From Holophagae bacterium (lineage in GTDB: Bacteria > Acidobacteriota > Holophagae > Acanthopleuribacterales > Acanthopleuribacteraceae): a stretch of 55,454 bases of DNA. Below, one piece after another: positions 2,633-50,061 of this stretch. The DNA lies in the NCBI GenBank assembly GCA_029263455.1, contig JAJCXM010000011.1:1-55454 (forward strand). The letters run 5' to 3'. Under the pieces are notes generated by a model that did not search any database, was not told the origin of the DNA, and saw nothing but the letters and a program-made list of their open reading frames with translations. The number at the start of each line of letters is the position of its first letter. The first letter of the stretch is position 1. The position numbers and the translations under genes were made by a program.

Positions 2633-4897
2633 GTGCAATTCATGTTACATGGCAACCCATTCATAACGTTCTGCGGAATACTGCTTATTTGCACAGTCTC
2701 GCGGGTCAGTGTGGCTCAGCTTCGACTGATCCCGCATCTCACCAATCAGAGTGGCGGTTTTGAATCTGAAATCATATTAGTCAATGCGAGTTCCGCGCCG
2801 CAGGGTTACCATTTACAGGGTTTTGACAGTGAAGGCGTGCTCCAGTCCAGTATCACAAGAACTCTTTCGCCATTTCAATCCATAAGTGGAACAGACCTGG
2901 CTCTTTTCGGCACTCAGCTTTCACACGTGCAAGTGAGTGAAGGCACGCAAATCGCTGCGTCTGTAAGGTTTCGAGCTAGTCGAGACGGTACCGGATCAGC
3001 CCACGTTCATGAATCCTCGCGCCAATCTGACAGATGGCGCATTTACCCGGGCGAGAACTCAGTGACCTGGGACGGAATAGCAATGGTGAACACGGGCGAT
3101 AACCCCGGCATGGTCTCGGTTAGCCAAATCGGCGCATCGGGTCAAGTGGTCAATGGACCCATCGTTATTGCTACGGCTATGCCCGTGATGGGCAAGCGCC
3201 TCTATCTTTTTGAGGCTGATTTCCCTTCAGTTGATCAAACGGTCTTTGAAATTACGGCCAATGTCCCCTTGGCGGTCTTGGCTTTACGTGGCAACCTGGG
3301 CTCTGACTACATCTGGGAGAATCAAGCTATCTCCGTCATCGAGAATCCGGTAACCGAGCCCAGATACCTGGTGCATATCACAAGCGCCGTCGGCGGATTT
3401 TCATCTCAACTGATCGTCTCTAATCCCACGGCGGAAACACAGCCCTTTGAATTGAGAGCCTATGACGCCATGGGAGGCGCGATTCAGGATGTACTTGGCT
3501 CGGTCAATCCCGGAGAGAGCCTGTATCAGAACGCCCAATCCCAGCTCGGAAGTGGGGTCTCGCACGTTGAGGTCATTCGCGGTAACGTCTTGAACATCAG
3601 CGTCGCCTACCAGAGAAACGGCGAAGCAACAGGTCCAGCCCATGTTCACAGCAGCCAGCGATCATCGCGCGCATGGCTTGTCTTTCCCGGCACCTTTGAA
3701 GTGACTTGGGATGGGATCGCCCTGTTGAACCTTGGCACGTCGTCGGCCCATACAAGAATTTGGCAAGTCAGTCAGTCTGGAGCGGTGTTGCGGGGGCCGA
3801 TAACCGCCTCAACGGAGTTGCCACCAAAGGGCAAGGCCCTGTACCTGTTCTCGCAAGACTTTGATGCTATCGAAGCGAGCCATTTTGAGGTTATCTCGTC
3901 TGAACCAACCATGGTGTTGGCCCTGCGTGGAAACCTGAATTCTGATCTACTTTGGGAAAACCAAGCCGTTCCGTTCACCACACCAAAGGCCGGAGCCAAA
4001 CCACCGTCTCGCATTGACTTTGCCATAGCCTTTGACCAGGTCCATCAGCAAACCATCATGGTTGGCGGCTTTGATTCAGCCTTTGACCTGCTGGCCGATA
4101 CCTGGTCTTGGAATGGAAGGCGCTGGACTGAGATAATGACGCCCGTTTCTCCTATGGCTCGAGCGCATCACGCCGGAGCCTTCAACGAATTCAGCCATCA
4201 AATGGTCATATTTGGCGGATTTGACAGCCCCCCATCCAAACGCAACGATTTCATGTCTTTTGATGGCCTAACTTGGGCTTCATTTCCTGGCGCTAGCCAG
4301 ATCCCAGCCGATGACGGCGAATTGGTGTTTGACAGCGCACGCAACATACTCATCCTGGTCGTCTCCAACGGCACGACTTTAGAAACCTGGGAACACGAGC
4401 AACAAGCTTGGACGCGAATAAACACGCCGACTCAGCCTGTCAGCGTTATTGATCAAGCCGTAACTTACGATCCGCTGCGCCACAATGTGGTTCTGTTCGG
4501 TGGCCTTGCTCCGGGAAACAGAATCGTCAACGAAACCTGGGAATACGACGGCCATGACTGGAGCAGCGCAGCACCAGCAACATCACCGCCACCGCTGATG
4601 GGGATGGCCTCGTGGTACGACACCCAACATCAACGATTCGTCGTGTTTGGCGGAATGAACGATAGCCGCGAATGGACCAACGAGACTTGGTCATACGACG
4701 GCTCTGATTGGGAGAGGATCGTTACCTCGACTTCGCCAACACCTCGGTGGGTCATGTTTGCGGCCTACCATCCCGGTCGCGGAGTAGCGACACTGTTTGG
4801 TGGCGAAGCCGACGGCGCAAGCGGATCAGAACTGCTCAATGATACCTGGGAGTTTGACGGTACGGACTGGCGTGAAGTCAACTTAGGGCAAGAATAG
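2633..4897 (+). CDS. Secreted protein with two HVHES/TWDGIA modules and Kelch-type repeats
   Basis: The start may be GTG 2633 or ATG 2642; neither has a clear Shine-Dalgarno sequence. A signal peptide ends near VSVAQ (~residue 29). Two copies of a ~220-residue beta-rich module follow, each with an HVH(E/S)S..R motif, a TWDGIA motif and a terminal LRGNL..(Y/L)(I/L)WENQA. The same module occurs once in the protein at 27171-28454. From ~residue 455, five Kelch-like blades (VxFGG with NDTWEFDGTDW-type motifs) suggest a beta-propeller. It is probably an exported binding protein. The module matches no family I can name. Confidence 0.85.
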   Translation: MQFMLHGNPFITFCGILLICTVSRVSVAQLRLIPHLTNQSGGFESEIILVNASSAPQGYHLQGFDSEGVLQSSITRTLSPFQSISGTDLALFGTQLSHVQVSEGTQIAASVRFRASRDGTGSAHVHESSRQSDRWRIYPGENSVTWDGIAMVNTGDNPGMVSVSQIGASGQVVNGPIVIATAMPVMGKRLYLFEADFPSVDQTVFEITANVPLAVLALRGNLGSDYIWENQAISVIENPVTEPRYLVHITSAVGGFSSQLIVSNPTAETQPFELRAYDAMGGAIQDVLGSVNPGESLYQNAQSQLGSGVSHVEVIRGNVLNISVAYQRNGEATGPAHVHSSQRSSRAWLVFPGTFEVTWDGIALLNLGTSSAHTRIWQVSQSGAVLRGPITASTELPPKGKALYLFSQDFDAIEASHFEVISSEPTMVLALRGNLNSDLLWENQAVPFTTPKAGAKPPSRIDFAIAFDQVHQQTIMVGGFDSAFDLLADTWSWNGRRWTEIMTPVSPMARAHHAGAFNEFSHQMVIFGGFDSPPSKRNDFMSFDGLTWASFPGASQIPADDGELVFDSARNILILVVSNGTTLETWEHEQQAWTRINTPTQPVSVIDQAVTYDPLRHNVVLFGGLAPGNRIVNETWEYDGHDWSSAAPATSPPPLMGMASWYDTQHQRFVVFGGMNDSREWTNETWSYDGSDWERIVTSTSPTPRWVMFAAYHPGRGVATLFGGEADGASGSELLNDTWEFDGTDWREVNLGQE

Positions 4898-8367: not shown

Positions 8368-8805
8368 TTGAACGGTGTTTTTCAACTCGGTGATTGGACG
8401 GTTGACATCAACCGCAATCAAATTAGCAAGTCCGGCGTGAGCCACCGTCTGGAAAACAAACCGATGAAATTGCTCCACTTCTTGATGCAACATGCACAAC
8501 AAGATGTGACCCGAGATGCGATCATTCAATCTGTCTGGGGCGGTGCAACCCATTATGACGACTCGCTGACCGTGGCCATGAGTAACTTAAGGCAAGCCCT
8601 AGGCGATGACCCCAAGAATCCTAATTACATCAAGACGATACCGCGACACGGCTATCGGCTGCTCGTGCAACCCTCTAGCAACCTTCAACGCCCGAAAACG
8701 CGTTTCACTCGCAAAGTACTGATTCGTTTGGTTATCGCCACCTCCGCTGCCTTGTTGGCGTGTTTTTGGATCATCTACGAACTGTTCCTCGCGTATCACG
8801 AATAG
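8368..8805 (+). CDS. CadC/ToxR-like membrane-anchored winged-helix regulator
   Basis: The start is TTG 8368. Residues ~5-100 form an OmpR/PhoB-type winged helix (Trans_reg_C): LTVAMSNLRQALGDDP and YIKTIPRHGYRL are typical of CadC-like regulators. A single transmembrane helix follows at ~118-140 (IRLVIATSAALLACFWIIY). The C-terminal sensory part is only a few residues, much shorter than in CadC. It probably regulates from the membrane. The DoxX-like gene 80 bases downstream is a possible target or partner. Confidence 0.82.
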   Translation: MNGVFQLGDWTVDINRNQISKSGVSHRLENKPMKLLHFLMQHAQQDVTRDAIIQSVWGGATHYDDSLTVAMSNLRQALGDDPKNPNYIKTIPRHGYRLLVQPSSNLQRPKTRFTRKVLIRLVIATSAALLACFWIIYELFLAYHE

Positions 8806-22814: not shown

Positions 22815-22901
22815 CCTTCTCCAAAAACGGCAACGCCGCTCCGGCTACCCCAAGAATCCACATGCGAAACTAGCGCCTTAAGAACGGTCAGAAGGCATGA
22901 A

Positions 22902-22970
22902 CGGTGACAGGGAGCGTGGAGAGGGGACTAGTAGCTAGTGGAGTATGTGGTTAAACGATCCCTGTCACCG
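22902..22970. repeat. Family C hairpin element
   Basis: CGGTGACAGGGA at 22902-22913 and TCCCTGTCACCG at 22959-22970 are perfect 12-base inverted repeats around a 45-base core. The core holds the palindrome ACTAGTAGCTAGT. The left 50 bases recur at 33779-33831. The small size suggests a MITE-like or REP-like unit. Confidence 0.75.
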
Positions 22971-23079
22971 AACTCATCCCGATTCGGCACAGTTAACGCC
23001 AAGACTATTTGAGCATTTGGGTGAACAGACAAGTCTACGAAAAGCCCTTCACCGCTAGCCACATTCTTGGTTCTCTCTG

Positions 23080-23433
23080 GGCTCAGATCAATCGGTGACC
23101 CCAACCCACCCCTCTCTGCGAACGATTGCAAAGCGGGTTTTTCTCAAGCGGAGTGCGAAGTCGACAGGAGCCTAAGCGACTGAGGCAGCGCTTTCGCCGA
23201 AGAGATTGAATGAATTGAAGAGACCCGGTCTGTGAATCGAGCGCAGCGAGGTTCGCAAGCGACAAGGCAGGGGAGTTGCGCGTGACTTCAAGGCTACGTA
23301 CCCGAAGCACCTCTCTGCGTTCGATGCCCGGTGCGAGCTCTTCAGTGTGGCAGGCACCTCGGCCAAAGCGGTACCTCAGTCGCTCGGGCTCCTGTCGATA
23401 CCGCACTCCGCCGGAGGAGGTGGTTTCATGCCT
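23080..23433. repeat. Family D repeat, 354 bases, copy 1
   Basis: It matches 30506-30859 over its full length at high identity. Near each end it carries inverted copies of CGACAGGAGCC.. GCGACTGAGG (23160-23190 and the inverse near 23365-23400). It ends with GGAGGAGGTGGTTTCATGCC directly against a RAYT 5' remnant. The same D-to-RAYT junction is found in the second copy. No coding potential is supported. Confidence 0.8.
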
Positions 23434-23848: not shown

Positions 23849-26044
23849 CTACTTGATGTTCTCAGGGTGCTGGGGCTTGTGTTGCATATCAGCTAACCTT
23901 TCGATCATTTTTTTGACGTTGGGATGTTCCGGTCCAAACGATTGCTTGCCCTTTTCGATGACCTCTCGTTGGAGTTGCTCAGCTTCCTGGTATCGTTCTA
24001 GCTTCCAAATGGTCTTGGCTAAATTACTCATCGCAATGACGGTACTTGGGTGATCGGGTCCAAATACTCTTTCAAATCCATGCACTAACTCTAATTGAAG
24101 CGCTTCCGCTTCCGAGTCTCGATTCTGAACTGAGAGTATCGCGGCGAGGTTACTCAATGAAATCAACGTATGAGGGTGTTCTAACCCTAAATCTCGCTTA
24201 CGTTTCTCCACGACTTCTCGTAGCAGTTGTTCTGCTTCATCGTTGCGATTGAGCTTCGACAGCGTATTGGCCAAATTGCCCATAGAGATCAGAATTGCGG
24301 GATTATCTGCTCCCCACACCTGGCTCTCTTTTGCCCAAACAAGTCGTTGAAGTTCTTCGGCTTCTTGGTATTGACCCATCTCCGAGAGGATCGTCGCCAG
24401 GTTAGCCATTGCGGTCAATGTGTCAGGGTGCTCTGCGCCAAACACCTGCTTACTCTTCGCTACAACCTTTCGCTGAAGATCTCTTGCTTCCTCGTAATGA
24501 CCTAGAGCCATTAGGGTTTGGGCTAGATTGCTGGTTGAGATCAGCGTTTCGGGGTGATCGTTGCCCAGTTGTTTATGTTCTTGTTCAAGCGTATCCCTTT
24601 GAATAGATTCCGCTGCTTTGAATTGGCCTAGATTGGCCAAGATGAAGCCCAAATCACTCATGGTCTGTAAGGTGTCAGGATGTTCGGCCCCCAATATACG
24701 GGTTCTCGCCTTCCCCACTTCTCGCAAGAGTGTTTCTGCGTCCTCAAGACGACCTAACTGGAAAAGCGCCGTCGCCAGGTTATTTTTGCAATCCAGGGTG
24801 ATGGGATGCACATCTCCTAATTGCGCGCTGTAGATCATCTGTGCCTTCTCCGCATGGTTGTACGCTCGGGTGTAGGCACCCAGAGACACGAATATCTTGC
24901 CAAATGTATTGTGCAAATTGGCACGAATCAACGGATGGTCCGCAAAGTCTCGGTCGATCTTCGCTTCAGCATCGTCAAGCATGTCCACGACTTTCAAATC
25001 GATGCCCGTTTGACGGGGTTCGACTTTCACCAGCATGTCGCTGAGAAAAACACTGGTCTGCTGAGCGGCGCGTTCAGATCGTTTGGCACGATAAAACCCT
25101 ATCGTTGAGAGTGTGGTGCCTAATACCAGTAACACCAGAAAGGCCGTCAACACGATGTTCCGGGTTCGGCGAATGGGCTTGGCAATAATCCAGTTCAGTT
25201 GGGTTTCGGTCTCCACTGCAGATGGTCTAAGCGTTGGAACCCGGGCCTTTAATCGATTGATCAGTCTGGTCAGATCGGAAGAAAGTCCTTCCACGGGCAA
25301 GGAATCTGCATTCATCGCTTTCCACAAAAGGGCCTCCATGGTGATCTCTGGGCTGTATGACCCTCGTCCTGTAAAGAGTTCCTGAAACATCAATCCCACA
25401 GAGTACATATCACTGGCCGTGGTTGGAGGCTCCGACATAGCTTGCTCGGGGCTCATGTACTTGGGGGTGCCCACAATGGTGCTCATTTGAGTTTGAAGGA
25501 CGGTTTCCATGTCGTCTGATACGGCCTCTTGGCCGAAGGGGAGGTCGTCCAGCAAACCCGTATCAACATCGTGCGTGTCTCTCGCGAGCCCAAAATCCAG
25601 GATCTTGACTGGTCCTTTGTGGGTAATCATCACGTTTTCTGGCTTGAGATCCCGGTGCACGATGTTTTGTTCATGGGCCACGGCCAATGCTCCCACAATC
25701 TCGCGCGCGATGCGTAGCTTCTCGCTTTGACCGATTCCGGACGTGATTGCCTCCTGGAGGTTGACGCCCGAAACCAGTTCCATAATCAAAAAATCACCTT
25801 GCTCGTCCTCAACCAAATCGTACAGACGACAGATATTGGGGTGTTCGAGCCTGGAGAGCATTTGCGCTTCGCGCAACATCCGCGCCTTAGCCTTTTCGTC
25901 AAGTTGATGCTCATGGCGGATGGCTTTTACGGCGACTCTTCGCTCCAGTTTCCTGTCGTAACCGAGGTAGACGTCCCCCATACCGCCTTGGCCAAGAACG
26001 TCGATCAGTTGAATCGGTCCCAAGGTAGTCCCAACCAATGTCAT
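23849..26044 (-). CDS. Membrane Ser/Thr protein kinase with kinesin-light-chain-type TPRs
   Basis: The ATG at 26044 follows TTGGAGG. Residues ~8-275 form a Hanks-type kinase: GQGGMGDVYLG (P-loop), AVKAIR (Lys), HRDLKPENVM (catalytic loop), DFGLA (Mg) and MSPEQ. A transmembrane helix follows near residue 300 (VLTAFLVLLVLGTTLSTIGF). About eight 42-residue TPR/KLC repeats come after it, with recurrent HPDTL and NLA motifs. The kinase faces the cytoplasm and the TPRs lie on the far side. It lies 119 bases downstream of the ECF sigma gene on the same strand, so both are probably one signalling unit. Confidence 0.92.
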   Translation of the reverse strand: MTLVGTTLGPIQLIDVLGQGGMGDVYLGYDRKLERRVAVKAIRHEHQLDEKAKARMLREAQMLSRLEHPNICRLYDLVEDEQGDFLIMELVSGVNLQEAITSGIGQSEKLRIAREIVGALAVAHEQNIVHRDLKPENVMITHKGPVKILDFGLARDTHDVDTGLLDDLPFGQEAVSDDMETVLQTQMSTIVGTPKYMSPEQAMSEPPTTASDMYSVGLMFQELFTGRGSYSPEITMEALLWKAMNADSLPVEGLSSDLTRLINRLKARVPTLRPSAVETETQLNWIIAKPIRRTRNIVLTAFLVLLVLGTTLSTIGFYRAKRSERAAQQTSVFLSDMLVKVEPRQTGIDLKVVDMLDDAEAKIDRDFADHPLIRANLHNTFGKIFVSLGAYTRAYNHAEKAQMIYSAQLGDVHPITLDCKNNLATALFQLGRLEDAETLLREVGKARTRILGAEHPDTLQTMSDLGFILANLGQFKAAESIQRDTLEQEHKQLGNDHPETLISTSNLAQTLMALGHYEEARDLQRKVVAKSKQVFGAEHPDTLTAMANLATILSEMGQYQEAEELQRLVWAKESQVWGADNPAILISMGNLANTLSKLNRNDEAEQLLREVVEKRKRDLGLEHPHTLISLSNLAAILSVQNRDSEAEALQLELVHGFERVFGPDHPSTVIAMSNLAKTIWKLERYQEAEQLQREVIEKGKQSFGPEHPNVKKMIERLADMQHKPQHPENIK

Positions 26045-26163
26045 GCAATCCTCCAACTTAACCCAACCTGTTCGTGGCCTTGTGCTCCGTTAAAATGAGG
26101 CTAACACAAAGGGATTGCATCGCAGGACAAATAGGGGATCTTGAGTTTTTCCAACAAGCTTTG

Positions 26164-26856
26164 TTAACTACGCGCTGTCTTGAAACTTAACACCGCCCTA
26201 AGCCACTTTTTCGCCATGGTGTAGTGACGCTCCACGGTTGCCTGACTGATGTCCAAAGCAAGCGCAATATCCTTGGTTTTGAGTCCTGCCCAGTACTTGA
26301 GGAAGACCACCTGATACTGACGGTAGTGCAGACCCTTTAACTTCTCCAATGATTGATTCACCGACAGGATCTCTTCATATTCGTAATCCTCGCCCACATC
26401 TAGCAACACTTCGTTCAGCGTCTGGTGGCCAAATACACCCTTCACCTGGGCTCCCTTTGGATTTCTGCGTCGCGCGTGCTCAAGTAATAACTGCCGAATC
26501 GCCCGTGCCGCGGCAAACAGAAAATAGCCACGATCTCGAATCTCACCCGTAAAACTCATGATATCTCGATCGATCCGCAAAAATGCCATATGTGCGAGAT
26601 CGGTGGGATGCAAATCCGTCTGGCCTTCTCTAGCCAGTTTCGACGCCGACATGGAACTGAGTGCCTCATATAATGCTGAAACCACATTGTCACGCGCCAT
26701 CAAGGCCGATTCGAGTAACGCACTGGCCTCGGCATTGAGGCACTCGGGGTGCGAGTCCTTTAGCGCTTCTCCTTGTATTTGGGTGGCCTGCTGTCGCTTA
26801 TCACGCCAGATACGAAGTTCAATCGTTACATTTATGGCCTTATCCCGAGAAATCAA
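26164..26856 (-). CDS. ECF-subfamily sigma factor (TIGR02999-like)
   Basis: The start is TTG at 26856 after AAAGGGAAAA. Sigma region 2 corresponds to LHPTDLAHMAFLRIDRD and ARAIRQLLLEHARRRNPKG. Region 4 is LKGLHYRQYQVVFLKYWAGL, then ALDISQATVERHYTMAKKWL, a helix-turn-helix for the -35 box. This layout is typical of the ECF type encoded beside Ser/Thr kinases in acidobacteria and planctomycetes. Phosphorylation by the kinase downstream is a plausible but unproven control. Confidence 0.88.
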   Translation of the reverse strand: MISRDKAINVTIELRIWRDKRQQATQIQGEALKDSHPECLNAEASALLESALMARDNVVSALYEALSSMSASKLAREGQTDLHPTDLAHMAFLRIDRDIMSFTGEIRDRGYFLFAAARAIRQLLLEHARRRNPKGAQVKGVFGHQTLNEVLLDVGEDYEYEEILSVNQSLEKLKGLHYRQYQVVFLKYWAGLKTKDIALALDISQATVERHYTMAKKWLRAVLSFKTARS

Positions 26857-26925
26857 CGCTTTTTCCCTTTCTTTTCTGATCTTAGCAAAAAGAGGCGTGA
26901 TTCACGCTGGCCAAGATTGAAAGCC

Positions 26926-26995
26926 TTTTGATGGGTTTTCCCTACTTATCCCACCTCTATAGATAAGCGCGCGATTCTGCGAGTAAATCGCTCAA
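26926..26995 (+). promoter_or_regulatory. Upstream box shared with the 28780 gene, copy 1
   Basis: TTTTGATGGGTTTTCCCTAC, then CTTATC.CACCTCTA.AGATAAG and TCTGCGAG.AA.TCGCTCAA also occur at 28673-28743 with very few differences. CTTATC/GATAAG arms can form a six-pair hairpin or a dyad operator. It lies in the divergent spacer between the ECF sigma gene and the 27171 gene. I read it as a common promoter or operator. Confidence 0.6.
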
Positions 26996-27170
26996 TCATA
27001 AAATCCTGGCTTGCTGTTGCCACATGAGCCCAGTCCCGGCTTGGGTTCTGCCAGTGGCAGCCCGCGTGAACGCTCATCGGTTGTTCGATCAGCCTCAGGC
27101 ATGCATGAAAAAGAATCCATGACAGATCACCATTATCAACACCGCAGCTAACCAAAAAAAGGAGACTCAG

Positions 27171-28454
27171 ATGGTCATCAAACACAAAATTTTCGTATTA
27201 CTACCCCTAGTATTCATGTTCCAAAACCCTACATTTTCTCAAGTTGAAGGGAAGGTCATGCGATTTGATGATCTAGCCATCTTGACTCCCTCCCTCGTGT
27301 ATGCGACCTCGAGTTGTTCTGGAAACTCCATAGAGGACCCACGAGGTGATATGGCAAGTGATTTCATGGATCTCATCAAAGCCTCCTGTTATTTGGAAGG
27401 CCCCGTCCTGAAGGTAACTATCGAAGTGGCAGAACTGCCGAATGAACTTGTTTTCAATCGGCAGGGATTGGCAGAGGGCACCACAGAATATAGGTGGCAA
27501 GCAGAAATCGACGTAGATGGCGATCCCTCGACGGGATCCTCGACCGGGAGTGAATATTTGGTGATGGCCATCCACCGTGTTGATGATCAGACTGCGACCA
27601 CCTTGCCCATCAACGAGGGAGTAGAAGCAATGGGCCTCAAACACATCTCAGGTAATTCCTGGAGCATCTTTCCTGCGTCACTGGACATAAACACAGCCAC
27701 TAATACCATGACGTTACGCAGCGAGGTTCCCAATATCTCCGAGGATACCAGTATCGTTGTGAACACGCTGGAGCAGCACCCGGTCAACGGATATCTCGGT
27801 GATGTGTCCAATGCCTGCATGTCACCGTCCCTGTCGGCACGTGGATATATCGTTCATGTTTCCAGTTCCAGCGGCGGGTTCGAGCCCAATCTCATCATAG
27901 CGAACACCAATATGACGGAACCCGTTACGAGTGTGCTCGAATTCTTCAACAAGGCTGGATCATTGATTGCAGATTACGAGCAAGTGCTTGAGGCAGGTGA
28001 GACACTATCGGCCAAGCCAGAGGATTTGGCCAATTCACAAGATGTATCCCACATCGGCCTTAGGGGTAGCGAAGACGTTCGGGTATCCATCACCTATTTG
28101 GCGCAAGTCGAAAACGCAAGTGTCGTTCATGTGCATGAATCGCGGGTCCAATCTCAACGATGGCGATTCTATCAAGGTGACTGGGACGCCACCTGGGACG
28201 GCATAGCGGTACTGAACACGTCAGATTCTTCCGTTGAGATCGAAATCACACAGTACGCATCATTTACCGCAATAAGAACAGTTGATATGGTGCTCGGGCC
28301 TCTGGAGAAAGGGCTCATGGTCCTCTCCAGCTCATTCAACTCCAACGAAGGTTCGTATTTCGAATTGACGGGTGATCAACCCTTTTCCGTTGTGTCGTTA
28401 AGAGGCACTCAGGATCAACGCTATCTTTGGGAGAATCTCGCTATTCCGCTGTGA
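27171..28454 (+). CDS. Secreted protein with one HVHES/TWDGIA module
   Basis: The ATG follows AAAAGGAGACTCAG. A signal peptide ends at NPTFSQ. Residues ~25-205 form an N-terminal domain with a calcium-loop-like DVDGDPSTGSSTGSEY. Residues ~220-427 repeat the module seen twice in the 2633 gene product, with HVHESRVQSQRWRFYQGD, then TWDGIAVLN and VSLRGTQDQRYLWENLAIPL. The protein ends with the module. Divergent from the ECF sigma gene and sharing an upstream box with 28780, it may belong to the sigma regulon. Confidence 0.8.
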   Translation: MVIKHKIFVLLPLVFMFQNPTFSQVEGKVMRFDDLAILTPSLVYATSSCSGNSIEDPRGDMASDFMDLIKASCYLEGPVLKVTIEVAELPNELVFNRQGLAEGTTEYRWQAEIDVDGDPSTGSSTGSEYLVMAIHRVDDQTATTLPINEGVEAMGLKHISGNSWSIFPASLDINTATNTMTLRSEVPNISEDTSIVVNTLEQHPVNGYLGDVSNACMSPSLSARGYIVHVSSSSGGFEPNLIIANTNMTEPVTSVLEFFNKAGSLIADYEQVLEAGETLSAKPEDLANSQDVSHIGLRGSEDVRVSITYLAQVENASVVHVHESRVQSQRWRFYQGDWDATWDGIAVLNTSDSSVEIEITQYASFTAIRTVDMVLGPLEKGLMVLSSSFNSNEGSYFELTGDQPFSVVSLRGTQDQRYLWENLAIPL

Positions 28455-28479
28455 ATCTCTCGCTCTCTATGACTGCGAA

Positions 28480-28520
28480 GCTTGGCGCGGAGACGGAGTT
28501 GATTCGTCTCCGCGCCAAGC
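28480..28520 (+). terminator. Perfect 16-bp stem hairpin after the 27171 gene
   Basis: GCTTGGCGCGGAGACG at 28480-28495 pairs perfectly with CGTCTCCGCGCCAAGC at 28505-28520 around a nine-base loop. It lies 26 bases after the stop. There is no clear U-run, so it may end transcription in both directions or protect the 3' end. Confidence 0.75.
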
Positions 28521-28672
28521 GTGTGTGACTCGTGAGCCTAAAATGGCCGGGAGGTGATCATTGCGTACGATAGTACTTTGAATCATGGCGAAGGAACCAC
28601 ACGCAAGAACAACGAATGTGTATACGAATCCGGTCCACCTAGATCGGATAATTACCGCGATATTTCAAATAC

Positions 28673-28743
28673 TTTTGATGGGTTTTCCCTACTTATCTCA
28701 CCTCTACAGATAAGCGTCTCAATCTGCGAGCAATTCGCTCAAG
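28673..28743 (+). promoter_or_regulatory. Upstream box shared with the 27171 gene, copy 2
   Basis: It is nearly identical to 26926-26995, including the CTTATC..GATAAG dyad. It lies about 35 bases before the start codon of the 28780 gene. Confidence 0.6.
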
Positions 28744-28779: not shown

Positions 28780-29910
28780 ATGAAACACATCTTACTTTCA
28801 GTCCTGTGTCTCTGTATTCCGGTGTATGCGCAAATTTCAGTCATCCTCGATTCCGCCGATGGACTCAACGGGCCAGGTGGGCTTGCGGTTGATAGCACGG
28901 GTAATTTGTACGTGGCTGGATCATTCAGTGACAACGCGTATAAGATCACATCCGGGGGAACGATCGCGGAAATCATCGATGCAACGGGTGACGGGACCAA
29001 TGCGCTGGACAACCCCAGCGATATCGCGGTTGACGGATCGGGTAACGTTTACGTGTGTGCCTACAACAGTGACAACGCGTTCAAGATCACGCCCGGTGGC
29101 TCCATAACGGAAATCATCGATGCGACGGGCGATGGCATGGGCAATACGCTGGATTACCCAACCGATATTTGTGTAGACGGCGCGGGGAACGTCTTCGTTA
29201 GTGGCCTGATCAGTGATAATGCTTTTAAGATCACGCCCGGCGGTGTGATCACGGAAATCATCGATGAATTTGATGGGCTCGATGGCGGAAGTTCCATCGC
29301 GGTGGACGGATTGGGCAACGTATTCGTAAGTGGACAAAACAGCAACAACCTGTTCAAGATCGCGCCTGGCGGCGCCATCACGGAGATTCTGGACGCCACG
29401 GGTGATGGCATGGCCCATGGGTTTGAATTCGCGGCTGGAATCACGGTGGATGCGTCGAACAACGTTTATGTGTGTGGCTATGTAAGCACCAACGTCTTTA
29501 AGATTACGCCCGGTGGCGTAATCACTGCGATCATCGATGCCAGCGGTGATGGCATGGGCAATACGCTCGATAACCCCGTCGATCTCGCCGTAGCTGCAGA
29601 GGGGACAGTCTATGTGGCGGGGCAGGCGAGCTACAACGCGTTCGAGATCACCAGTGGGGGTGTGATCACGGAAGTGATCGACTCGATGGGTGATGGCATG
29701 GGCAATCCACTGGCCATCGCCCAAGGCGTCGCCGTTGATGCATCGGGCAATGTGTTCGTGTCGGGAAATTTCAGCGACAACGTGTTTATGATCACGCCCG
29801 AACCGCCTTGTGGCGCTACCCCCGAGTTCTTCACTGAACTCGGAAACTGGCCAACAGTCGCGCAGACCCTGGAATCCCTCATCATGATCGTCAATGACGC
29901 CTGTATGTAG
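28780..29910 (+). CDS. Secreted NHL-type beta-propeller protein
   Basis: A signal peptide (MKHILLSVLCLCIPVYAQ) precedes ~seven repeats of 43-48 residues. Each has a GIAVDGSGNVYVxG strand, a SDNAFKITPGG strand and an EIIDATGDGMGN turn, which fits NHL/SMP-30-like propellers. The repeats are unusually alike at DNA level, implying recent internal duplication. The C-terminal ~30 residues (FFTELGNWPTVAQTLESL) are a separate helical tail. It shares its upstream box with the 27171 gene. Confidence 0.85.
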   Translation: MKHILLSVLCLCIPVYAQISVILDSADGLNGPGGLAVDSTGNLYVAGSFSDNAYKITSGGTIAEIIDATGDGTNALDNPSDIAVDGSGNVYVCAYNSDNAFKITPGGSITEIIDATGDGMGNTLDYPTDICVDGAGNVFVSGLISDNAFKITPGGVITEIIDEFDGLDGGSSIAVDGLGNVFVSGQNSNNLFKIAPGGAITEILDATGDGMAHGFEFAAGITVDASNNVYVCGYVSTNVFKITPGGVITAIIDASGDGMGNTLDNPVDLAVAAEGTVYVAGQASYNAFEITSGGVITEVIDSMGDGMGNPLAIAQGVAVDASGNVFVSGNFSDNVFMITPEPPCGATPEFFTELGNWPTVAQTLESLIMIVNDACM

Positions 29911-30177: not shown

Positions 30178-30505
30178 AAATTTTCTTCCTGATGCCTTAC
30201 GCCGTAGAGGCCGGAGGCCGAATGTCCCGGTAGCCCACTCCGATGCCGACGCAGTCGGGTGAGGGGTGGGTAGCGATGATGAGAGTAGCAAGAGCCCAGA
30301 GCGCAGCGCCGGGCGACTGATGCCTAACCGCCGGAATTCCAATCAAAGCCCCAGATGTCTGCTAAACGTCTCATTTCATCGTCAAAAGAATGGATGGTGC
30401 TCTTCCTGATCCTCGACATACCGTTTGACGGCGCGTATTTGGTTTTGGAGCACGAAAACGCGCCATTAACCCCATGTGATATCAATCGCCCGTCGCTGCG
30501 CTCTT
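30178..30505 (-). other. Spacer with a possible cassette scrap
   Basis: On the minus strand 30323-30422 reads MSRIRKSTIHSFDDEMRRLA, then DIWGFDWNSGG and a TAG in GGCGGTTAGGCATC, which looks like an attC core. This could be a small cassette end, cut by family D on its 5' side. The rest (GCCGTAGAGGCCGGAGGCCG) is an unassigned G+C-rich repeat. Confidence 0.3.
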
Positions 30506-30859
30506 GGCTCAGATCAGTAGGTGACCACAAGTCACCCCTCTCTGCGAACGATTGCAAAGCGGGTTCTTCTCAAGCGGAGTGCGGTGTCGACAGGAGCCTA
30601 CGCGACTGAGGCAGCGCTTTCGCCGAAGAGATAGAGTGAGTCGAAGAGACCCGATCTGTGAATCGAGCGCAGCGAGGTTCGCAAGCGACAAGGCCGGGGA
30701 GTTGCGGGTGACTTCAAGGCTACGTACCCGCGCACCTCACTGCGTTCGATGCCCGGTGCGGGCTCTTCAGTGTGGCAATCACTTCGTCCAAAGCGGTACC
30801 TCAGTCGCTCGGGCTCCTGTCGATACCGCACTCCGTCGGAGGAGGTGGTTTCATGCCAG
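30506..30859. repeat. Family D repeat, 354 bases, copy 2
   Basis: This is full-length homology to 23080-23433, including the inverted CGACAGGAGCC arms and the GGAGGTGGTTTCATGCC end. It abuts a RAYT 5' remnant in the same way as copy 1. Confidence 0.8.
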
Positions 30860-33749: not shown

Positions 33750-33778
33750 TACCGCAAGCGTATAACGACGTGATGCAT

Positions 33779-33831
33779 GAACGGTGACAGGGAGCGTGGA
33801 GAGGGGACTAGTAGCGAGTTGAGTATGTGGA
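33779..33831. repeat. Family C element, left part
   Basis: ACGGTGACAGGGAGCGTGG through GAGTATGTGG matches 22901-22950. The right inverted arm is missing. Bases 33832-34073 hold an open minus-strand frame I cannot assign. Confidence 0.65.
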
Positions 33832-47144: not shown

Positions 47145-47322
47145 CCGCCCCCTGCGGCGAACGGAATGGGCATGGCAGAGCTTGGCGCTGGGGTCTGAGT
47201 CGTATTGCCGAGGTGTGATTCAGCGTTTCAAGTTGCAATCGCCAGGACTCAATCAACCGTTTGAGTTGGGTTCAGGCCTATGCAACACACATATGCGAGC
47301 TGGCCCGCATTCAACTAAATAA
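47145..47322 (+). pseudogene. RAYT 3' remnant
   Basis: The plus frame RRTEWAWQSLALGSESYCR, then FKLQSPGLNQPFELGSGLCN and THMRAGPHSTK, is the C-terminus of the 48793 transposase with two substitutions. It starts right at the TGTCCCGCTGTA junction. Confidence 0.88.
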
Positions 47323-47667
47323 CGCTTCGGGCTACTGAAACCAACCGCGTTTTTGGTTCGTTGCTGGCGAACAGGGGATAGATACGTCCAGAGTGACGGC
47401 CTAAGCGAACCAAGCAAGCATTTTGGTCAGATTACTTGACGATCGAAACAACATATCCCAGAACTCGGCTGATTCACGGACACATTTCAGTCGTCGCGTG
47501 CTTGGAGAAAAGGAAACGGCGCTTCAAGTCCGAAATCTGCCAGATCATGACCAGGAAATCGACCAGAAAGCCGAGGTGAGGTCGAAATGATGGATCGCAA
47601 TCTCATTGGTAATGCTCAAAGTTGGCTCATAGACTAGGTTTCACGTGATACGTCCCCATAAATTTCT
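47323..47667 (+). repeat. RAYT element 3' non-coding tail, copy
   Basis: Nearly identical to 49729-50061, with a ~12-base insertion around 47452 (AACATATCCC) and point changes. It ends in TTTCACGTGATACGTCCCC. Contains AACCAA.CGCGTTT.TTGGTT and other small inverted repeats; no open frame. Confidence 0.82.
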
Positions 47668-48641: not shown

Positions 48642-50061
48642 ATTTTATAGGGACGTATCACGTGAAATGTGGTCTATTACCCATCTTCTATATTGTGCCT
48701 TGCAAGAGTTGGCCATCTTCACTTGATTTCTGATCTCACAAGACCCATGTTCTAAACATCACCAATCACCATATTTCTTTGAGGGGGAACTTATGGCACG
48801 TATTTGTCGTTTGAAGTCGCATCTGGATGGGCAGGCTTACCACGTCATGAACCGCACCGTACGGCAGGCGTTCTTGTTTGATGACGATGTCAGCAAGGAG
48901 TGGATCTATCAGGAAATATTGGCGTTGGCCAAGATCTATACGGTCGACCTGCACGCCATTGCCGTTATGAGCAATCACTATCACATCATCTTGACCGTGC
49001 TGAAACCTGTGCTGACGGAAAAGGATGTGGAAGCCCGTTTTGCGCGATACCAGCGTCGATTACGTCATCCACAGAAGTGGTACGAATGGCGATTCGAGGA
49101 ATGGGCAACCCGCCTATCGGACCTTTCGCGCTTCATGCAGGACCTGAATCGGTCGATAGCCCACTACGTCAATGGCCGTGATCAAGCTAAAGGGTCGCTT
49201 TGGGGCGACCGCTTCAAATCAACCCTCCTCGACGATGGTGACGGGTTTCTGCGCTGTATGGCCTATGTGGAAATGAACCCTGTGAAGGCTGGTCTGTGCC
49301 AGAAACCGTCAGAATATCGATGGTGTTCCATGGGCCGATTCCATCGTGGTGGTAAGAAGGCAGCCGGCGTCGCCTTCCCCAAAATCAAGGGTTTTGATTT
49401 TGCTAAGACAACGGCTCAAAGACAGAAAGCGTTTCGGATCTTCCTCGATCACCTAGCCGACCGTGAGCATGACCTAGATAGCAAATTGGAAGTCGACATG
49501 GTCGAGTTGCAGAAAGCGCTCTCGTCTTGGAAATTGGACGAACTGGCTGACTGGGTGTTACGCCGAACGGAATGGGCATGGCAGAGCTTGGCGCTGGGTT
49601 CGGAGTCCTACTGTCGAGACGTTATCCGGCGTTTCAAGTTGCAATCGCCCGGACTCAATCAACCGTTTGAGTTGGGTTCAGGCCTGTGCAACACACATAT
49701 GCGAGCTGGCCCGCATTCAACTAAATAACGCCTCGGGCTACTGAAACCAACCGCGTTTTTGGTTCGTTGCTGGCGAACAGGGGAATAGATGCGTCCGAAG
49801 TGGCAGCCTAAGCGAACCAAGCAAGCATTTTGGTCTGATTACTTGACGATCGAAACAGAACTCGGCTGATTCACGGACAAACTTCAGTCGTCGCGTGCTT
49901 GGAGAAAAGGAAACGGCGCTTCATGTCCGAAATCTGCCAGATCATGACCAGGAAATCGACCAGATAGCCGAGGTGAGGTCGAAATGATGGATCGCGATCT
50001 CATTGGCATTGCTCAAAGTTGGCTCATAGACTGGGTTTCACGTGATACGTCCCCATAAATT
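48642..50061 (+). mobile_element. Complete RAYT-bearing element with terminal inverted repeats
   Basis: GGGACGTATCACGTGAAA at 48650-48667 and its perfect complement at 50036-50053 bound the element; similarity extends through flanking A+T bases to about 26 bases. It holds a 5' leader, the transposase, and a ~330-base 3' tail. Fragments of each part recur across the window, so this is a plausible master copy. Confidence 0.8.
48793..49728 (+). CDS. REP-associated tyrosine transposase (Y1/HUH, IS200-like)
   Basis: The ATG follows GAGGGGGAACTT. RLKSHLDGQAYHVMNRTVR starts the Y1 fold. The HUH metal site is in AVMSNHYHIILTV. The catalytic Tyr is probably in RCMAYVEMNPVKAGLC. At 311 residues it is longer than the usual ~150-220, with a C-terminal extension from ~residue 195 that includes a helical RRTEWAWQSLALGSESY segment. 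It would nick and join single-stranded DNA at hairpin ends. Confidence 0.92.
   Translation: MARICRLKSHLDGQAYHVMNRTVRQAFLFDDDVSKEWIYQEILALAKIYTVDLHAIAVMSNHYHIILTVLKPVLTEKDVEARFARYQRRLRHPQKWYEWRFEEWATRLSDLSRFMQDLNRSIAHYVNGRDQAKGSLWGDRFKSTLLDDGDGFLRCMAYVEMNPVKAGLCQKPSEYRWCSMGRFHRGGKKAAGVAFPKIKGFDFAKTTAQRQKAFRIFLDHLADREHDLDSKLEVDMVELQKALSSWKLDELADWVLRRTEWAWQSLALGSESYCRDVIRRFKLQSPGLNQPFELGSGLCNTHMRAGPHSTK

Follow-up and report, generated by a model that had tools for sequence, protein, structure and literature searches.

The window (the whole stretch of DNA that was analysed, 55,454 nt long) contains a pair of regulatory genes on the minus strand, an ECF sigma factor gene (26164-26856) with a Ser/Thr kinase gene (23849-26056) downstream of it. 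The sigma factor gene has a TTG start and encodes a protein of 230 aa, which belongs to the PF07638 family with a score of 83.5 bits (cut-off 21.1); the kinase gene encodes a protein of 735 aa with a Pkinase domain (175.4 bits, cut-off 31.7) and TPR repeats (TPR_10). Next to this pair, on the plus strand, lie gene 1 (27171-28454), coding for a predicted secreted protein of 427 aa with no Pfam or NCBIfam match, and gene 2 (28780-29910), coding for a predicted secreted beta-propeller protein of 376 aa with SBBP/NHL repeats. Secretion was called from a signal-peptide-like N-terminus by a crude rule. An earlier note on this DNA had described two non-homologous secreted-protein genes beside an ECF sigma factor and a Ser/Thr kinase, and this description agrees with the BLASTP comparison of the two proteins (best E 0.24), with their signal-like starts, and with the PF07638 and Pkinase scores. 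Gene 1 is followed by an 18-bp G+C-rich hairpin on the plus strand (28480-28520, z -6.40), which has no T run after it and is probably the end of the gene 1 transcript.

The note had also reported a box of about 70 bases, near-identical at two sites. Both the repeat and its coordinates proved correct: the box consists of two direct copies of 79 nt on the plus strand, at 26917-26995 and 28664-28742, identical at 67 of the 79 positions. Local alignment of the upstream regions gave a score of 110, compared with 39 for the best of 300 mononucleotide shuffles; the flanks of the two copies are unrelated, and in the alignment the similarity ends abruptly on either side of the 79 nt. The duplication is well beyond chance. 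Copy 1 is located between the divergently oriented sigma factor gene and gene 1, with the sigma factor start 60 nt away and the ATG of gene 1 175 nt downstream, and copy 2 between genes 1 and 2, with the ATG of gene 2 37 nt downstream. By the earlier note's own criterion, a box found mainly inside or downstream of genes would have refuted its reading; instead, both full copies are intergenic, co-oriented and upstream of plus-strand genes, and the 23 partial matches checked in the genome all fall inside ORFs of 90 codons or more. Inspection by eye also revealed an ORF of 32 codons (27025-27123) between copy 1 and gene 1, which may be a leader peptide or a product of chance.

The differences between the two copies are unevenly distributed, with 2 in the 45 positions of a conserved core (26925-26969 in copy 1, 28672-28716 in copy 2) and 10 in the 34 positions outside it (Fisher p 0.003 for a core picked post hoc). 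The core contains the dyad CTTATC-N11-GATAAG (26945-26967 and 28692-28714), with the same arms in both copies. The arms emphasised in the earlier note are therefore present, but the dyad is a weaker feature than was claimed, because perfect dyads of 6 bp or more (loop 3-20) occurred in 210 of 1000 dinucleotide shuffles of copy 1 and in 152 of 1000 of copy 2, i.e. in 15-21% of shuffled boxes; of 554 intergenic segments of 79 nt, drawn from 34 loci, 140 contained one as well. The dyad common to both copies is not beyond chance. Copy 2 additionally holds a 7-bp dyad, a length reached by 29 of 1000 shuffles.

Also within the core, and identical in both copies, is the sequence GGGTTTT-N16-TCTA (26933-26959 and 28680-28706, plus strand), which could represent a -35/-10 pair. 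Its spacing fits that of ECF promoters. As in autoregulated RpoE-type promoters, the box lies upstream, and its possible bipartite element shows RpoE-like spacing. It differs from them, however, in having no AAC on the plus strand and in being conserved over the whole 45-nt core and not in two short blocks, a pattern which, with two copies, is indistinguishable from that of a recent duplication. Two copies cannot define a motif. A looser RpoE-like pattern, GG...TT-N15-17-TCT[AG], was rejected as evidence since its 14 matches in the window, boxes counted, make it uninformative. The RpoE -35 element is given as GGAACTT, and the AAC and CGT elements are described as not being used by all ECFs, in the available part of the source (PMC8103513). 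In the present case, the ECF combination of AAC (-35) and CGT (-10) was not found on the coding strand of either copy: AAC is absent from the plus strand of both, and CGT occurs there in copy 2 alone, at 28715. On the minus strand, AAC is present in both copies, with no CGT in the box.

Other promoter types were considered as well. No sigma-70-like pair was found on the plus strand inside either copy. On the minus strand, a weak candidate (27023 to 26995) just reaches the end of copy 1, but sigma-70-like sites occur no more often than in shuffles (6 versus 8.9). The sigma-54 search gave 6 matches, none of them near the boxes and in a number no greater than chance, and was set aside. Likewise, a reading of the box as an integron attC site was dropped on inspection of the box ends.

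The earlier note had suggested searching for the box upstream of other genes, and no further copy turned up in the genome, which measures 6.25 Mb and is about 95% complete. The block TTTTCCCTACTTATCNCAC occurs at exactly 2 sites, and with up to 3 mismatches at 4 places, as against 4 for a reversed control; the dyad pattern gave 2 exact matches and 6 with one mismatch, i.e. 8 as against 18 for the control. Searches of the genome with three sub-blocks revealed no credible third copy. When 199 genomes (the own genome and 198 relatives) were searched with the box by BLASTN, the two known copies were recovered, followed by matches with E of 0.013 or worse per genome, which over 198 genomes is chance level. 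A covariance model built on both copies, run on seven genomes, returned the same two sites and one match with E 0.05 in a relative (genome G002, locus L142), which is antisense within a glycosyltransferase-like ORF and was attributed to chance. A pattern scan of genome contigs yielded 2 records, one from Metabacillus (intergenic, upstream of an ORF) and one from a proteobacterial MAG (inside an ORF); they too look like chance, about 0.8 being expected at uniform base composition, and show no further resemblance to the box. Plasmids and phages gave no match, and viral contigs 0 records. Within the scope of these searches, the box is private to this genome and present in two copies.

Whether the surroundings of ECF genes commonly contain such pairs was assessed in a survey of 94 of 112 ECF matches from five genomes, covering 732 intergenic regions and 171,898 bases. 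The loci included the window and 23 others of its own genome, with 10 of 10, 30 of 31, 19 of 20 and 11 of 27 from genomes G001, G003, G005 and G004, respectively; the fetched stretches overlap in two cases (L110/L118 and L119/L125). Both strands were compared and pairs within one intergenic region were left out (an earlier run on a subset had considered same-strand pairs only), and a pair was counted as private if it had E below 1e-4 and no match in another region. No private direct-repeat pair upstream of two genes was present at the 93 other ECF loci (of 111 found), and the idea that paired boxes are a general feature of ECF-kinase loci was therefore discarded. This counts against a general mechanism and at the same time marks the box as unusual. 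Apart from the box, private pairs were present in the window (56 nt, see below), in L133, in L121 and in L235 (36 nt, weak). The repeats in L133 and L121 adjoin genes which, from reading their translations, we take to resemble REP-associated transposases. L235 is an ECF-kinase locus of the relative G004; one copy of its 36-nt repeat (86% identity, 323-358 and 8766-8801) lies in the gap that precedes the sigma factor gene and the other downstream of an operon.

The sigma factor itself belongs to a large set, the genome containing 24 ECF factors of the PF07638-type family, 20 of which have a kinase within two genes according to a motif rule. Its region 2.2 motif is HPTD, with the Thr present and one Asp kept, and Thr or Ser is found at the third position of this motif in 23 of the 24 family members. 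Among the matches listed from 396 genomes of the phylum, the closest other sigma factor is 38-39% identical; because no close relative is in reach, cross-species footprinting was ruled out. In gene arrangement, the pair resembles the ECF43 pairs EcfP-PknT of Vibrio parahaemolyticus and EcfK-PknS of Xanthomonas citri, where an ECF factor gene likewise lies beside a Ser/Thr kinase gene. The likeness extends in part to region 2.2, where a Thr is present and for which the accessible part of one report gives the consensus QTTA (PMC13147305). In contrast to ECF43 factors, which have Thr in place of the acidic DAED motif, HPTD keeps an acidic D next to the Thr; the N-terminal part of the sigma factor is longer than in its paralogs, and its score against TIGR02999 (Sig-70_X6), 101 bits, is below the cut-off of 126.15. 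From the portions available, the region 2.2 Thr is the proposed site of activating phosphorylation in ECF43 factors (PMC13147305, PMC8999054), yet in EcfK it was dispensable in one assay, and sites in the linker matter (PMC13147305). For these reasons, we infer activation of the present sigma factor by its kinase only as plausible.

The box probably represents a promoter region that was duplicated locally, not a genome-wide class of promoter. The latter is unsupported because the genome holds only two copies and nothing beyond chance was found in the relatives, and the claim of a general promoter class fails because the box is confined to one locus; the absence of AAC from the plus strand and of paired boxes from the other ECF loci point the same way. 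Of the earlier suggestion that the box is the sigma factor's own promoter class, what survives is a local cis-regulatory region, supported by its placement; the class does not, and nothing beyond position links this sigma factor with the box.

The reading that we prefer, tentatively and well short of confidence, is that the box arose by local duplication of a promoter/operator region, with the adjacent kinase-linked ECF sigma factor as its most likely reader. The duplicated box would place two neighbouring secreted-protein genes under common control, and copy 1, lying in the divergent gap, might also provide autoregulation of the sigma-kinase operon. The adjacent ECF sigma factor would be the most economical reader, something like GGGTTTT-N16-TCTA would serve as -35/-10, and the partner kinase would phosphorylate the sigma factor and thereby switch it on, as in ECF43-type pairs. 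In favour of this reading, both boxes lie upstream, and in the same orientation, of genes that adjoin the sigma-kinase pair. The distance of copy 1 from the sigma factor start is as expected for an autoregulated ECF locus; according to the part of the source at hand, autoregulation applies to about 55% of ECFs (PMC8103513). In addition, gene 2 probably depends on a promoter downstream of the strong hairpin that follows gene 1, and copy 2 takes up much of the space between this hairpin and the ATG of gene 2. The greater conservation of the core, the identity of GGGTTTT-N16-TCTA in both copies and the Thr of region 2.2 also speak for this reading, whereas the missing AAC, the frequency of the looser pattern, the lack of such pairs at the 93 other ECF loci and the wealth of other intergenic repeats in the genome speak against it. 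The lack of a credible third copy fits a dedicated local regulon, which is possible.

Next in probability, although rather unlikely, is that the box combines an ordinary promoter with an operator for some other regulator, which would bind as a dimer to the CTTATC/GATAAG arms or to the GGGTTTTCCC palindrome, the ECF pair being a mere neighbour. The upstream placement of both copies suits an operator equally well, and there are 0 differences over 26 arm positions, for which P is 0.005 if 12 differences are randomly spread (the arms having been picked post hoc). However, the dyad is not beyond chance, the ordinary promoter would have to do with no sigma-70-like pair on the plus strand within the boxes and a weak candidate on the minus strand, and, among the proteins scanned, no regulator immediately adjoining the boxes was found apart from the sigma-kinase pair.

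Less likely again is a box without regulatory function, either a short dispersed repeat or the scar of a duplication. This neutral reading is a real rival because the background is rich in repeats: the window holds 28 families of direct repeats that are 35 nt or longer, of which some are coding, together with intergenic families with 57 and 6 genome matches and a second private two-copy intergenic pair. The box, however, falls outside all those families and has no third copy, its two copies are upstream and co-oriented, and the differences between them avoid the core (a post hoc observation). Its absence elsewhere, the upstream placement and the conserved core thus weaken the reading. As to known repeats, the box is short and intergenic and contains small palindromes, as REP-type and other short intergenic repeats do, and many such repeats exist in this genome and its relatives. 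It differs from REP-type repeats in having two copies only, in lacking a G+C-rich hairpin, and in lying upstream of two co-oriented genes; no REP-associated transposase-like gene was recognised beside it.

The repeats of the window are described here in their own right. Long intergenic repeats are dense between 22895 and 53217. The family of 23075-23304 and 30501-30730 has 57 matches in the genome and that of 47155-47378 and 49561-49784 has 6, query included. The private intergenic pair 22895-22950 and 33775-33830 (56 nt, 96% identical) lies downstream of genes at both sites. A match to the group II intron model RF00029 (61.8 bits) is present at 64-140 of the window.

Finally, post-initiation control of genes 1 and 2 by a structured 5' leader RNA encoded in the box appears highly improbable, for although three small hairpins are predicted and copy 2 (plus strand) folds with z -2.81, only 1 of 200 shuffles being as good, copy 1 is weaker (z -1.53, with 19 of 200 shuffles folding equally well), the predicted folds differ between the copies with no compensatory change, the distances to the start codons are very unlike (175 versus 37 nt), and Rfam gave no match over the box either at the gathering threshold in a scan of the window or at E up to 5.

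In a more specific form of the preferred reading, which is a doubtful proposition, a T-rich promoter type (GGGTTTT-N16-TCTA, overlapping the dyad) would be private to two sites of the genome, both in the locus of the kinase-linked ECF factor that reads it and that has no close relatives. If true, every one of the approximately 20 sigma-kinase pairs of the genome might act as a dedicated local switch and use a promoter code of its own. The literature searched, which comprised partial texts, showed no target promoter for an ECF43-type factor, and the near-identical boxes upstream of genes beside a sigma-kinase pair would be a concrete candidate for one.

As regards the genes that the boxes precede, the C-terminal part of the gene 1 product (about 200 aa) has no Pfam match, but gave 27 matches in proteins of the genome, for example that encoded at 2711-3973 of the window, and is also found in its family. 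This part is perhaps a repeat domain, hitherto undescribed, that occurs in proteins predicted to be exported.
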